Source of the DNA: Verrucomicrobiia bacterium
Lineage (GTDB): Bacteria > Verrucomicrobiota > Verrucomicrobiia > Limisphaerales > UBA8199
NCBI GenBank assembly: GCA_035946615.1
Contig: DASYZB010000039.1
Location: forward strand, 1 to 46,143
Length of the DNA: 46,143 bases
Reading direction: 5' to 3'
This document shows, piece by piece, positions 12,939 to 17,122 of this stretch. The notes under the pieces were generated by a model. The model saw nothing but the letters and a program-made list of their open reading frames with translations, ran no database searches and was not told where the DNA came from. The first letter of the stretch is position 1, and the number at the start of each line of letters is the position of its first letter. Both the position numbers and the translations under genes were made by a program.

Positions 12939-13439
12939 TTACGCCGCCTTTTGTTCCACCGGCTTTTGCCCCAGCCGGGTCTGCTCGACTCCTTCAATGA
13001 AGTAATAAGGGGACATGTGCGGACGGTCGCGCCGGGGGCGGGTCCCCGCCTTGGGCCAGGTAAAGTGACAGTCCTCGCAATAATAATCCTTCTCGACCAG
13101 GCCAAAGCGGGCAGCCACACCCATGGCCAGAGTGGTCATCAGAGAATTGCGCGCGAATTGTGGATAATCGACTCGGAGCGAGCCGCACTCGGGGCACCGG
13201 ATAGCCTCGCGCAACGCGCCCTCGGCTGCATCCCAGTCCAATAGAAACTGCTCCGCCCGTTCAAATTGGTCGGCGGGAACCTCGATGCGCGCGCCTGCCT
13301 CCGGTTGTAAAACGAACCACAGCCGCTCGAGGCTGAGGTCATCGTGAACCTCTGAATCGAACCCGGCCTGACACAGGCGCTGTTGAATCGGCTCGGCCTT
13401 AGACCGGTTGGGAAATAAAGCTATCTCCATTATATTCAT
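12939..13439 (-). CDS. DUF2007-like protein with a C-terminal zinc ribbon
   Basis: A 166-aa cytoplasmic protein. Residues 4-70 (MEIALFPNRSKAEPIQQRL, then a V/L-rich beta strand and ADQFERAEQFL) resemble the DUF2007 fold, related to PII-like signal proteins. A four-cysteine zinc ribbon follows (CPEC near residue 82 and CEDC near 120). The ATG at residue 4 (13430) is the more family-like start; neither candidate has a clear ribosome-binding site. The precise role is unknown. Confidence 0.65.
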   Translation of the reverse strand: MNIMEIALFPNRSKAEPIQQRLCQAGFDSEVHDDLSLERLWFVLQPEAGARIEVPADQFERAEQFLLDWDAAEGALREAIRCPECGSLRVDYPQFARNSLMTTLAMGVAARFGLVEKDYYCEDCHFTWPKAGTRPRRDRPHMSPYYFIEGVEQTRLGQKPVEQKAA

Positions 13440-13549: not shown

Positions 13550-15103
13550 TTACAATTCCATCCGCCGCGCGGTGGGTTGCTTTTGGCCATCGCGCGCCAC
13601 GCTGGCGTTACGAGCGCGGCCCTCAGCCCAACTGCGGAGCCGATTGATCTGCTCGTCCATGGTTTTGGCCAAGGGCACAGTTTGCGCCAGAGCTTCCAGG
13701 ACGTGTTCAGTAGTCAACTCGACCTTCGAGTAGAAGGCATCGTAGAGGGCGCTGTTAATTGCCTCCTCGATTTCTGCGCCGCTGAACTGAGGGCTGGCGT
13801 CGGCCAAGGCATCCAGATCAAAGAGGGCGGCGTCGCGCGCGTGTTTTTGGAGGTGAATGCGGAAGACCTCGAGGCGCTCCTGGCGGCTGGGCAGATCGAC
13901 AAAAAAAATCTCGTCGAGCCGGCCTTTGCGGAGCAGTTCCGGGGGCAATTGAGAGATATCGTTAGCGGTGGCAACGACAAAGACCGGAGCGCTCTTTTCA
14001 GAAAGCCAGGTCAGGAAAGTGCCGAACACGCGGGCGGTGGTGCCGCCGTCGGTGGCGCCGGACCCCTGGGAACCGGCGAAGGCCTTGTCAATTTCGTCCA
14101 CCCAAAGAATGGCCGGAGCAACCGATTCGGCCACGGCAATGGCCCGGCGGACGTTTTCCTCTGAGGACCCGACGAGGCTGCCGAACATGCGCCCCATATC
14201 GAAACGCAACAGGGGCAGTTGCCATTGGGTTGAGACGGCCTTGGCGCACAGGCTCTTGCCGCAGCCCTGCACGCCCAGCATGAGGATGCCCTTGGGGGCG
14301 GGCAACCCGAAGGCCCGCGCCTCTTTGGAGAAGGCCAGCGCGCGTTTGCCCAACCAATCCTTCAGGACGGCCAGGCCGCCAATTTGCGAAAAACCTTCGG
14401 TGGTTGCGTAGTATTCCAGCAAACCGCTCTTGCGAATGATCTGCTGCTTTTCGGCGAAGACCTCGTTGACATCGTCCCCGCTGAGGCGTTCGTCTTTGAC
14501 GATGATCTTGGCAAAGACGTTTTCGGCTTCGCCCAAGGTGAGGCCCAAAGCGGCCTGGAGCAGGCGCTCGCGCCCGGCCTCATCGAGGGCGATGACGACC
14601 TGCTTGAACTGTTTGACATCGGCGATGATCTTGTCGAGCAGATCGCTCAAATCCTCCCGTGATGGGAGAGGATAGTTGAGCACCGTGATCTCCTTTTCCA
14701 ATTCAGTCGGTATCTCCATGATCGGGGAAACCAGGATGATGGTCTTGAAGCTGTTCTTCAAGTGGATGGCAATCTCCTTGAGCTTCCGCACGACAGCAAA
14801 GTTGTTCTTGGTCAGAAACGGGTGAAAATCTTTAAAGATAAAGAGGGCCGGTTCGACCTGCTCGATAACCTGGTCGAGGGCGGCCAGGGGGTCTTTCGTA
14901 GCGGCGTTGCGATGTTTTTGGGATTGGATGGATGTGCCCGCTGGGACAATCCCGGTGCTGTAGCTCCATTCGAAGACCTTTTTCTGCCGCTTTTTGGCAA
15001 TCTCGACCGCCAGGTTCTGCACGCGCATCTCTTCGCTCGAAACGATGTAAAGGATCGGGTAGCGCGCCCGAATGAGCGTCTCCAGTTCAGTCTGAAAGTT
15101 CAT
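13550..15103 (-). CDS. Ycf46-type AAA+ ATPase
   Basis: A 517-aa AAA+ ATPase like chloroplast Ycf46. Residues 1-235 form the family's N-terminal domain ([16 protein letters not shown]). The AAA module has Walker A GVQGCGKS (Lys283), Walker B ILWVDEID (Asp336-Glu337), sensor 1 VVATAND and the arginine-finger region [13 protein letters not shown]. The C-terminal lid contains [18 protein letters not shown]. The start overlaps the upstream 74-aa gene by 4 nt (ATGA), so translation is coupled. Ycf46 proteins have no settled substrate; a link to photosynthetic or inorganic-carbon regulation is reported only in cyanobacteria. It is the last gene of the ECF sigma operon. Confidence 0.9.
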
Positions 15104-15324
15104 AAGATGCGGCGCCGGAGGCTTGAATCTTTCGGAACCACTTTTTTCAGCACAGCCGCCAATGCCGGCGTGAGATTATGCACCAGAATATTGCCATCCG
15201 ATAGGATTAACAGTTCGCTTGAAGTGCTGTGTTCGGCGCCAAGGCTGGTGGCGCCCACCGGCGAGGACGCCTGCGCTGCCTGGTCATAGGCGCCGCCGGG
15301 TTTGTTGTATCTTGGCCTGTTCAT
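15100..15324 (-). CDS. 74-aa protein between the radical SAM and AAA genes
   Basis: A 74-aa protein of unknown function. Residues 1-32 are polar and disordered-looking (YNKPGGAYDQAAQASSPVG). Residues 34-74 are compact and more conserved-looking (ELLILSDGNILVHNLTPALA, ending in [12 protein letters not shown]). It overlaps both neighbours by 4 nt (ATGA at each end), which strongly supports that it is a real translated gene. A small protein sitting directly beside a radical SAM enzyme could be its substrate or an adaptor for the ATPase, but nothing in the sequence decides this. Confidence 0.72.
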   Translation of the reverse strand: MNRPRYNKPGGAYDQAAQASSPVGATSLGAEHSTSSELLILSDGNILVHNLTPALAAVLKKVVPKDSSLRRRIL

Positions 15325-16190
15325 TGAATGAGGTTCAAGTTTAAATCACGCGCAATGCACACAGCGCGCTCCTGCTGATCGGCGGGAACGGTTCGGCGCA
15401 GTTCGGGATGACGGGCTGAGCGCCAGGCAGGCCAGAAGCCGGCACGAAGGCTTACCTTGACTCGCGGCAACTGGGCGGCAAGCCATTCGGCTACGGGCCT
15501 CCAGCAACAATCGATGTGGCCAGGCATGAGCAGATGGCGAACGATGAGTTCGGAGCGGGTACTGAGCAGGTTCTGCTGGACGGTCTCGATATAGCGTTCA
15601 ACTCGCGCGAGTCTTAGCGCGCAATCATCATTGCCGAATTTAAAATCCGCCACCCACACATCGAACATCCCATCGAGCAATTGCCGCGACTGCCACGACC
15701 CATGGGCGTTGGTTTTCCAGACCAGTTTCGCCGTTACGGGAAGTTGCGCGACCAACGCCAGGGCGGCAGGCAGATGGATGGTGGGCTCGCCGCCCAGCAA
15801 TTGGATGGTGAGTGCGCCCTCCTCGATAGCCAGGCGGGCGCCAGCGGCCACATCGGCCACATCGAACCGCGCGCCTGCCCTTGGGTTCCAGCTTGATGAA
15901 CCGGTGATGCAGAAATCGCAACGCAGATCGCAGCCGCTCAGGGCTATCGCAAAGGTGGGAAGCAACTCCAGCTCATCTCCAACCTCGATTTGAGCCGAAA
16001 AAAACCGGGTCTCAGCTCCCGCTCGGCAGCGGCCCGATTCGCCGGCGAGCCGGTTGACCCCGCAATCGTGGGCGCAGAGACGGCAGTCTGCGAGCATGGC
16101 ACGGGCGAGCCGCGCGCGAGCCCCGGCGATCAGCGGGCGGTTCATTCGCGCCGCCCTGGGCTCGAGAGAATCCGGGCAAGTCATGCGCAT
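15321..16190 (-). CDS. radical SAM protein, PflX-like
   Basis: A 289-aa radical SAM enzyme of the group related to pyruvate formate-lyase activases (COG1313, PflX). The N-terminal cysteine segment CRLCAHDCGVNRLAGESGRC comes first, followed by the CX3CX2C cluster motif CDLRCDFC that holds the 4Fe-4S cluster binding S-adenosylmethionine. A glycine-rich LLGGEPTIH motif follows. The ATG at 16190 is chosen because GAGGA lies 9 nt before it, overlapping the stop of the 79-aa gene; a TTG at 16214 and an ATG at 16145 are alternatives. The target protein is unknown. The 4-nt overlap with the 74-aa gene suggests they work together. Confidence 0.83.
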   Translation of the reverse strand: MRMTCPDSLEPRAARMNRPLIAGARARLARAMLADCRLCAHDCGVNRLAGESGRCRAGAETRFFSAQIEVGDELELLPTFAIALSGCDLRCDFCITGSSSWNPRAGARFDVADVAAGARLAIEEGALTIQLLGGEPTIHLPAALALVAQLPVTAKLVWKTNAHGSWQSRQLLDGMFDVWVADFKFGNDDCALRLARVERYIETVQQNLLSTRSELIVRHLLMPGHIDCCWRPVAEWLAAQLPRVKVSLRAGFWPAWRSARHPELRRTVPADQQERAVCIARDLNLNLIQ

Positions 16191-16203
16191 TTGAAAAGGT
16201 CCT

Positions 16204-16443
16204 CTAACCGCCAAACCAGCGGCGCCACCAGGACCGTGGCGTCGGCGGAGGTATCTGACGAAGGGATTGTTCTAAACGCTGCGCGATGACGGGTGGCACG
16301 GGGGTATGGAGCGCGTCGTGCCGGAGCATCTCTTCGGCGCTGGCGAATTCGAGAGCCGGTTGCGATTGGCTTTGCTGCTGATTGGCAGCCGCCTCCTGCT
16401 CTTCGGCTTTTTGTTGTGAGGAAAGTCTGTGTTGAGGCTTCAT
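16204..16443 (-). CDS. 79-aa protein following the ECF sigma gene
   Basis: A 79-aa basic protein. The N-terminus is Gln/Glu/Ala-rich (QQKAEEQEAAANQQQSQSQP). It is followed by a helix with EEMLRHDALHTPVPPVIAQR, and it ends in an unusual Trp/Arg tail (RSWWRRWFGG). It starts 6 nt after the sigma factor stop, the usual place for an anti-sigma factor or sigma partner, but it has no membrane segment or zinc motif. I infer a regulatory partner; no known family is recognised. The terminal WWRRWFGG could contact membrane or nucleic acid. Confidence 0.68.
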   Translation of the reverse strand: MKPQHRLSSQQKAEEQEAAANQQQSQSQPALEFASAEEMLRHDALHTPVPPVIAQRLEQSLRQIPPPTPRSWWRRWFGG

Positions 16444-16449
16444 ATAAAT

Positions 16450-17022
16450 CTAGGCCGTTTTTTGAAACAGGACGGCAAAGGCCTTGCGCGCGCGGTGGAG
16501 CTTGCCGCGGACGGCGTCGGCAGATTGCTCCGTAAGGGCTGCGACTTGCTCATAGCTCAATTCCTGGTCGGCCACCAGCAGGAGCAACAGCCGGTATTCC
16601 GCCGGCAGACCATCCAATGCCTTCTGGATGCGCTGGCCTAGTTCCTTTGTTTCAAGCACGCGCAGCGGGGAATCGGCTTTTGCGGGAGTGGTTTCCCAAA
16701 TGGCATCATCGGCGTTGGACATCATGTGCCGCTCGTTCCAGGCCTGCAGCAGGTTGCGGCAATGATTGATGGCAATCCGGTACAACCAGGTGCGCCAGGA
16801 GGATTCCTCTCGGAACTGGCTCATCTTTCGGAAGGCCTTGAGAAAGACGTCATGGGTGGCATCTTCGGCCTTTTGCGGGTCGCTCAGCAACCGGAGGGCC
16901 AGGTAATAAATGGCGCGGCTATACTCGTTGTAGAGGTCGGCAAATTCAGAGGACGCCAGTCTGGCTGGCGATGTCTCCGCAGAAGCGGGTAATGCCTGTG
17001 GCTCGCTCACAGTGACGTTCAC
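16450..17022 (-). CDS. ECF-type sigma-70 factor
   Basis: A 190-aa extracytoplasmic-function sigma factor. Region 2 spans about residues 26-98 (FADLYNEYSRAIYYLALRLL, DATHDVFLKAF, WRTWLYRIAINHCRN). Region 4 spans about 133-185 (LDGLPAEYRLLLLL, then the helix-turn-helix LSYEQVAALTEQSADAVRGK). Residues 1-25 are a short extension. It starts with GTG. It opens the operon that continues through a 79-aa protein, a radical SAM enzyme, a 74-aa protein and a Ycf46-type ATPase. No membrane anti-sigma gene is present nearby. Confidence 0.92.
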   Translation of the reverse strand: MNVTVSEPQALPASAETSPARLASSEFADLYNEYSRAIYYLALRLLSDPQKAEDATHDVFLKAFRKMSQFREESSWRTWLYRIAINHCRNLLQAWNERHMMSNADDAIWETTPAKADSPLRVLETKELGQRIQKALDGLPAEYRLLLLLVADQELSYEQVAALTEQSADAVRGKLHRARKAFAVLFQKTA

Positions 17023-17034
17023 TGCTGATTAGAC

Positions 17035-17122
17035 AAAACCCGCCAGGGTATGTCACGAGGACAAAAGGGGCGAAGGTCCTGCGCACCGATTAGCAAGGAT
17101 GCGCCTTCCGGAGGCGGGTTTT
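17035..17122. repeat. 10-bp inverted repeat framing the ECF sigma upstream gap
   Basis: AAAACCCGCC at 17035-17044 is perfectly complementary to GGCGGGTTTT at 17113-17122. The two arms bracket the whole gap between the sigma start and the deacetylase-like stop. A smaller hairpin (CGCCT/AGGCG) sits next to the right arm. Termination or operator function is possible; neither is proven. Confidence 0.4.

Follow-up and report, generated by a model that had tools for sequence, protein, structure and literature searches.

What function could require a sigma factor, a radical S-adenosylmethionine (SAM) enzyme and an AAA+ ATPase to be encoded side by side? The question is raised by a 46,143-nucleotide stretch of a Verrucomicrobiia bacterium of the order Limisphaerales (assembly GCA_035946615.1, contig DASYZB010000039.1), called here, at its full length, the window. 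Its minus strand carries five consecutive genes between positions 13,550 and 17,022, for an extracytoplasmic function (ECF) sigma factor, a 79-residue protein (p79), a radical SAM enzyme, a 74-residue protein (p74) and a Ycf46-like ATPase. An earlier model-generated description of the window, the original prediction, had proposed that together they could form a regulated system of protein modification or remodelling. Comparison with relatives suggests an autoregulated ECF-sigma regulon, which is well supported by sequence. We favour the reading that this regulon serves a machine in which a Cdc48-like AAA+ ATPase remodels proteins and a radical SAM enzyme contributes one step, and we judge its chances to be evenly balanced.

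All five predicted frames were found on the minus strand: the sigma gene (16450..17022, GTG start), p79 (16204..16443), the radical SAM gene (15321..16214, TTG, the exact start being uncertain), p74 (15100..15324) and the ATPase gene (13550..15103). Gaps of 6 nt or less, with ATGA-type overlaps flanking the 74-residue frame, had been described and were confirmed: sigma and p79 are separated by 6 nt, p79 and the radical SAM gene overlap by 11 nt (counted from the TTG), and p74 overlaps each of its neighbours by 4 nt. Pfam matches were obtained for the sigma factor (Sigma70_r2, 2.6e-15; Sigma70_r4_2, 6.2e-11), the radical SAM enzyme (Radical_SAM and Fer4_12) and the ATPase (AAA), and p79 and p74 matched no Pfam or NCBIfam family.

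To these we compared 160 ATPase loci, of which 80 came from the order (part of the orthologous places listed there) and 80 were the best of 428 named candidates; removal of identical ATPase DNA left 117. Most named relatives are Verrucomicrobia, many labelled 'subdivision 3' or as Limisphaerales metagenome-assembled genomes (MAGs), and the few labelled Rubrivivax, Planctomycetota or Kiritimatiellota are perhaps mislabelled bins. Sigma and p79 genes were found upstream of the ATPase gene in 92 of the 117 loci, neither ever alone. The radical SAM gene was upstream in 56 loci and p74 in 55 (both in 54, either in 57); three loci with a distant downstream radical SAM gene (L132, L166 and L167) were scored as lacking this cassette. 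Radical SAM and sigma-p79 genes were both in view in 48 loci, and 40 loci contained sigma, p79 and ATPase genes without the cassette. Gene order is thus not unique to this genome, and the small frames are not unconserved, the two outcomes that would have counted against the original prediction: the order is kept across the 117 loci, and the codon positions 1/2/3 differ in proportions (0.459/0.335/0.623 in p74 and 0.490/0.397/0.618 in p79) that are those of protein-level constraint. A conserved, regulated set stands, and what gives way is its unity, the genes forming two modules instead of one fixed five-gene unit. Sigma, p79 and ATPase are the frequent core, with the radical SAM gene and p74 as an optional cassette that varies largely together with genes for DUF1257-like and DUF2997 proteins.

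Regulation is indicated by an ECF-type promoter, CGTGAC-N17-GTCTAA (17029..17057, minus strand; CGTGAC at 17052-17057, GTCTAA at 17029-17034), an exact match for which the chance expectation is 0.06 per window at up to one mismatch. Because the annotated GTG of the sigma gene lies only 7 nt from the -10 element (judged by eye), translation may in fact begin at the next GTG, at 17010. The pattern GTGA-N19-TC[TA]AA was present in 46 of the 93 regions upstream of sigma (window included), with identical spacing in all 46 strict sites although 16 to 22 was permitted, and these sites gave the consensus GCGTGACAT...TGTCTAATC. A matrix built on them retrieved 134 sites scoring above 12, our cut-off, in 2.86 million strand-bases, against a single one for the reversed matrix. 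Such sites preceded the sigma gene in 81 of 92 loci, an own-operon promoter by sequence, though the count is partly circular because many of these sites trained the matrix. They also preceded the DUF1257-like gene, whose sites were not used in building, in 37 of 48 loci, and the genes of two tetratricopeptide repeat (TPR) proteins described below, T1 (7 of 63) and T2 (3 of 13). The remainder comprised one site before the radical SAM gene of a sigma-less locus (L104) and five elsewhere. Eight further DUF1257-like loci had no ATPase gene on the stretch, and seven of them carried a site above 12; for six of these seven (L271, L283-L287) at least 2 kb of upstream DNA was seen, and less than 1 kb was available in L282, which has no site, and in L280, which resembles a second copy of the L093 region. 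The DUF1257-like promoter of the window genome scored 13.8, the lowest but one. Paralogous ATPase-DUF2997 loci (L272-L279, L289 and L290) had no site above 9, except one in L275. There is hence good evidence that one sigma factor would run both units.

p79 is a candidate regulator of this sigma factor. It has a Q-rich N-terminus and a W/R-rich C-terminal tail, with a tryptophan within the last 16 residues in 93 of 93 proteins, and it is present in all 92 sigma loci, with or without the radical SAM gene. Zinc-binding anti-sigma (ZAS) factors carry the motif HxxxCxxC. p79 has neither cysteine nor a hydrophobic segment, so it is not recognisable as a zinc-type or membrane anti-sigma factor. The absence of anti-sigma features had been pointed out before and is borne out, yet the anti-sigma reading still stands, because p79 accompanies every sigma seen at these loci and does so in the anti-sigma position.

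The second unit accompanies the cassette closely. A DUF1257-like gene was encoded downstream of the ATPase gene in 46 of the 57 cassette loci (45 of them also with DUF2997) vs none of the 40 cassette-free sigma-p79-ATPase loci. Across 245 genomes of the order, the clade's DUF1257-like gene (E <1e-30) was present in 28 of the 34 genomes with the radical SAM gene (E <1e-40) vs 1 of the 211 others, one weak match (G046) being set aside. On a FastTree tree of the ATPases, 13 changes of the radical SAM label are required (10 or more on supported branches); in 5.8 of 7 independent pairs the DUF1257-like gene changes along with the radical SAM gene, and it never goes the opposite way (median p 0.03, range 0.016-0.25); four loci with a contig start near the ATPase gene were excluded from this test and from the peptide test below. 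The name DUF1257 is not firm for this gene, which the Pfam model misses in the window genome, although the clade profile finds that copy and, in a set of 20 sequences, matches a Pseudanabaena protein annotated as DUF1257 (E 4.8e-7). DUF2997 was recognised by PF11211 in L215 (58.5 over 24.1) and also, over the cut-off, in the window genome.

Downstream of DUF2997, many relatives encode a membrane protein without family match (Z), the TPR protein T1 and a PilT-family ATPase (TIGR01420, 386.8 over 319.1 in L338). The window genome consists of 5.6 Mb in 161 contigs; its DUF1257-like and DUF2997 genes are unlinked to the window, lying at the end of contig C86, and contig C66 starts with T1 and PilT. 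We infer that these two contigs adjoin, because the genes are contiguous in two relatives (G010 and G011; L285 and L286). The N-terminus of T1, MSRFx[NK]LE[FL], is conserved at positions 2, 3, 4, 7 and 8 in 60 or 61 of 61 proteins each, and 61 of the 17,836 frames start in this way, every one of them a T1. T2 is a second TPR protein with N-terminal membrane segments, and the sigma promoter lies ahead of it in L107, L116 and L200. Between the ATPase and DUF1257-like genes, 20 loci (L176, L172 and L200 among them) encode a small membrane protein of about 100 residues with an SPLSRDEL-like stretch (S1).

The same protein types cluster outside these chromosomes. Relatives of the ATPase were detected on 704 of 72,556 plasmid records. 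In the flanks of 11 of these records, mostly the top-ranked ones, DUF2997 was annotated within 4-5 kb in nine, DUF1257 in six and a 4Fe-4S/NrdG-like protein in eight; three of the latter were checked and all are radical SAM proteins (PF13353, PF04055). The plasmid-borne ATPase most similar to that of the window (53% identity; L348) comes from a Treponema succinifaciens plasmid, where it lies between genes for a radical SAM protein and a phage baseplate assembly protein V. Ycf46-type ATPases are also encoded on viral contigs as long as 548 kb (L359-L438): counted on 6-kb flanks of the best 80 of 242 phage loci, DUF2997 was present in 38 of 80 and DUF1257 in 39 of 80. A radical SAM gene was on the stretch in 14 of the 80, with DUF2997 in 14 and DUF1257 in 13 of these 14. 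Sigma factor, radical SAM enzyme and Ycf46-type ATPase had been called not a known set. This needs amending, as some plasmids and phages, too, have the radical SAM gene clustered with those for the ATPase, DUF1257 and DUF2997, and holds in that no publication describing this gene set was found in a search of open-licence PMC papers. By sequence, the operon is probably a sigma-controlled chromosomal version of this wider set.

These distributions bear on an alternative that we consider unlikely but worth real weight, namely that the genes share a stress regulon and no machine, sigma driving unrelated envelope and pilus genes while the radical SAM enzyme and p74 do a separate metabolic job. T1, T2 and PilT occur near the ATPase gene in loci with and without the cassette, and sigma, p79 and ATPase stand alone in the 40 cassette-free loci, as such a regulon would allow. 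Against it, the ATPase/DUF1257/DUF2997/radical SAM cluster recurs on plasmids and phages, no sigma gene being annotated in the plasmid flanks read, and within the order the cassette and the DUF1257-like gene change together.

The ATPase itself carries the AAA domain (PF00004, 9.3e-28), and its best matches among PDB sequences are Cdc48/p97 (E 4.6e-54). Its 'Ycf46' label is tentative, being matched to no library model, and leans in part on the DUF1257-like and DUF2997 neighbours in relatives. A role as a defence system was dismissed: PADLOC gave only AAA-domain matches (IetA and TRIP13) and a weak viperin match, the IetA match being confined to residues 261-494 (E 4.6e-23), with its partner not sought.

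In the window the ATPase ends in RRMEL (13553..13567, minus strand), and a peptide of this kind, counted by a loose pattern ([RK], up to three residues, then [LMIFV][ED][LFMI] at the end), closes the ATPase in 52 of 57 cassette loci vs 3 of 55 others, its commonest form being R-[RK]-[MVI]-E-[LF]. Peptide and cassette agreed in 6.0 of 9 independent pairs, with none opposite (median p 0.03, range 0.016-0.125). Only 91 of the 17,836 frames of these loci end in the pattern, mostly the ATPase or a rhomboid-fold protein, X. For two of the three non-cassette loci with the peptide (L132 and L249), a DUF1257-like gene is present either at the locus or in the genome, and four of the five cassette loci without it on the ATPase have X. 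Beyond the order, the ATPases of four actinobacterial plasmids end in RRIDF, RTFEF or RQIDF and adjacent transmembrane (TM) proteins in RRLEF, RTLDL, RKLDI and RRLDL, and the Treponema plasmid ATPase ends in RKLEM. No such end was found on three cyanobacterial ATPases without the enzyme, nor on two from Bacillus and one from Paenibacillus with it.

X is absent from the window but encoded in 23 of the 117 loci, and 22 of these, all except L249, also have the radical SAM gene. Its rhomboid domain was recognised by PF01694 (5.5e-07; 5.6e-30 in L249). All 23 proteins end in R-x-x-[LI]-E-[LIM], and by eye only two (L097 and L249) keep GxSG. In L124, a short frame at the position of X, 1341 to 1126 nt before the ATPase gene, keeps only the X end (...RSERVARLEL), as if the peptide alone had been selected.

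These features recall Derlin and Cdc48, and one may suppose that the C-terminal peptide of X brings in the Cdc48-like ring, which would then extract proteins from the membrane. The rhomboid domain, mostly without GxSG and always with the conserved end, and the nearness of the ATPase to Cdc48/p97 in the PDB are in line with this idea, as is the recruitment of Cdc48 by the SHP tail of yeast Dfm1, reported in an excerpt of PMC8641752. We nevertheless find it improbable: X occupies few of the loci and is missing from the window, and the ATPase itself bears the same kind of peptide, for which reason the peptide may serve as a tag and not as a site that binds the ATPase. The X peptide also differs from a typical SHP box.

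The radical SAM enzyme exceeds the Pfam cut-offs of PF04055 (31.5 over 29.5) and PF13353. It contains the CxxxCxxC motif (C95, C99 and C102; 15909..15932) and an N-terminal cysteine set (C44, C47, C51 and C63; 16026..16085), both invariant in 39 aligned rows, a C-terminal pair (C236-C237; 15504..15509) conserved in at least 90% of them, and GGEP; all three sites are on the minus strand. Its AlphaFold model (pLDDT 92.2) best matches pyruvate formate-lyase (PFL) activase (3cb8; Z 21.6, 222 aligned residues, root mean square deviation 2.5) among 1000 chains compared, the next family being NifB (16.8). The enzyme is nonetheless outside the PFL activase family as defined by TIGR02493, scoring 21.9 of the 231.75 bits needed.

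p74 co-occurs with this enzyme. It was found in 33 of the 245 genomes, and these are 33 of the 34 with the radical SAM gene; outside them it occurs nowhere, one chance match inside a 756-residue frame (G033) being set aside. In G108 the contig breaks off within the ATPase gene, and adjacency was judged from the retrieved DNA. The original prediction had noted that p74 sits where a substrate or adaptor of the enzyme would, and such a role is reasonable in view of these counts. The conserved core (15133..15216, minus strand) consists, in alignment and model, of a PDG-type hairpin and a helix with an invariant Gly44. The whole model, a hairpin and two helices, is of middling confidence (pLDDT 74, predicted template modelling score 0.42) and had no PDB match below E 0.6, and the p74 profile retrieved nothing below E 0.5 among PDB sequences. 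Four inspected plasmid enzymes end in a PDG-type hairpin (AEG in one) similar to p74 and DUF2997, and p74 scored higher against their tails than 100 of 100 column shuffles. Compared with DUF2997, the p74 profile reached a probability of 12.7 untrimmed and, on 17 columns, 50 when trimmed, with 0 of 100 shuffles as high. Homology of p74 to DUF2997 is doubtful, because the match is only hairpin-sized and no Pfam match exists, and a PqqD/RiPP recognition element (RiPP, ribosomally synthesised and post-translationally modified peptide) was rejected because neither a Pfam match nor a good PDB match of the model was obtained.

Given the PFL-activase-like fold, p74 could be a miniature glycyl-radical protein activated at Gly44, which, besides Met1, is its sole invariant residue in 44 rows. 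We regard this as very unlikely, since p74 shows no similarity to the glycyl-radical domain of Escherichia coli GrcA (rank 13851 of 16113, shuffle p 0.14) or to PflB (shuffle p 0.54). That p74 is a RiPP precursor or recognition element, as a small gene adjoining a radical SAM gene with a 4-nt overlap might suggest, is hardly credible, because its core is conserved and its flanks variable, unlike a leader with a variable core, three p74 proteins gave no Pfam match at E up to 1, and the model has no PDB match at E <0.001.

Protein modification or remodelling, the function proposed earlier, is still the best class of function, and from the comparisons above we infer a scheme for how the machine works, what p79 does, which chemistry is involved and how the peptide is used. 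p79 would restrain sigma until an envelope or redox cue frees it, and both units would then be made. The ATPase ring would work with the DUF1257-like protein and DUF2997. p74 would correspond, as a separate protein, to the PDG-type hairpin at the end of radical SAM relatives from plasmids and phages, and the enzyme and p74 would act on the ring or on a client handled by it. The peptide ending the ATPase and X would be a handle for such partners, and the outcome would be that a membrane or type IV pilus protein is remodelled. New relative to the original prediction are the promoter, the second unit and the ATPase peptide. More speculatively, and only as a tentative proposal, a widespread AAA+/radical-SAM machine (Ycf46-type ring, DUF1257, DUF2997, activase-type enzyme and PDG-hairpin partner) might recognise or modify a C-terminal R-x-[LMIV]-[ED]-[LF], thereby marking or extracting membrane proteins in Derlin-Cdc48 fashion. 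The peptide would then be worn by the ring and by membrane proteins (X in Verrucomicrobia, TM and TM-HhH proteins on the four actinobacterial plasmids); phages, plasmids and plastids would hold versions or parts of the machine, and subdivision 3 Verrucomicrobia would have put it under a dedicated ECF sigma.

Several observations weigh against the remodelling regulon that we favour. The whole case is built from sequence alone, and the relatives compared are mostly MAGs. The ATPase gene lacks sigma and p79 in 25 of 117 loci, some of them at contig ends, and 11 of 48 DUF1257-like loci have no promoter site above 12. Scanned with one mismatch, the window genome contained 13 sites vs 24 for the control pattern, thus no excess, and the exact pattern matched 15 times in the family, nine being the operon and six others vs eight for the control; the scans therefore define no regulon beyond the two units. 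p79 has no family match. The Pfam DUF1257 model (PF06868) finds nothing in the window genome, and the copy in L215 is under the cut-off (20.4 of 22.2 bits). The T1 motif is kept in loci without the radical SAM gene and is therefore not tied to that enzyme. The likeness of the p74 hairpin extends over only 17-20 columns, and PDG turns are common, which column shuffles do not control for. In the 80 phage loci the peptide is about as common where a radical SAM gene lies nearby (3 of 14) as where none does (14 of 66, p = 1.0), so that its link to the enzyme is not universal.

Other features were seen in passing. In a type IV pilus cluster of the window genome, a PilT-type gene is preceded, at a distance of some tens of nucleotides, by an exact copy of the promoter pattern (contig C73, 48741-48769, plus strand; L312/L339), and another such copy is ahead of a PilC-type gene in a relative (G008, L343). 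The PilT-type gene is not claimed as a regulon member, since the genome scan leaves chance as a possible explanation. The downstream neighbour of the ATPase gene in the window (12939-13439, minus strand) is weakly DUF2007-like, under the Pfam cut-off, and no counterpart was found at the loci of relatives.

Although cyanobacteria and plastids conserve Ycf46 and Ycf35, hardly anything is known of their mechanism. Bacterial relatives of both now fall into a single predicted regulon, for which a promoter, a radical enzyme, the obligate small partner of that enzyme and a common C-terminal peptide are described. This gives these long-mysterious chloroplast genes a defined set of candidate partners. 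If the peptide is indeed a handle or target of the radical SAM enzyme, proteins would be marked for an AAA+ machine in a new way, one that has relatives among phages and plasmids.

Among the closest known systems are cyanobacterial and plastid Ycf46 and cluster g of Synechocystis, in which an excerpt of PMC4284462 places DUF2997, ycf35 (DUF1257) and fed7 together. Shared features are the Ycf46-type ATPase, DUF1257 (here a DUF1257-like protein) and DUF2997 with an iron-sulfur protein, and stress regulation: passages of PMC7496141 place Synechocystis ycf46 (slr0374) in a stress operon, its inactivation lowering extracellular carbonic anhydrase activity, and an excerpt of PMC12172450 gives a more than 11-fold rise of Microcystis ycf46 on threonine. 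In freshwater red algal plastids, ycf35 and ycf46 both tend to be absent, according to part of PMC5940233. The operon differs from cluster g in having a radical SAM enzyme and p74 instead of the ferredoxin Fed7, and the cluster as printed in the excerpt is without ycf46. It differs from cyanobacterial Ycf46 in its single sigma-controlled regulon, the ATPase peptide and, in relatives, the TPR-PilT tail. Plasmid and phage clusters share the protein types (AAA family ATPase, DUF1257, DUF2997 and a 4Fe-4S single-cluster protein), adjacent for example on Paenibacillus pPPM1a and in Rhodococcus, where DUF1257 is not annotated. Unlike the operon, they show no sigma gene in the annotated plasmid flanks read, and the radical SAM protein itself terminates in the hairpin in the four plasmid enzymes that were inspected, whereas p74 is separate here. 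With ECF sigma/anti-sigma pairs the operon shares the own-operon promoter and the small gene directly 3' of sigma, but p79 lacks the hydrophobic segment, cysteine and family match. Finally, the Cdc48/p97-Derlin system of endoplasmic-reticulum-associated degradation belongs to the same AAA+ superfamily, and some relatives likewise have a rhomboid-fold protein with a conserved C-terminal peptide; the system described here differs in having one AAA domain, no typical SHP box and, in the window, no X.

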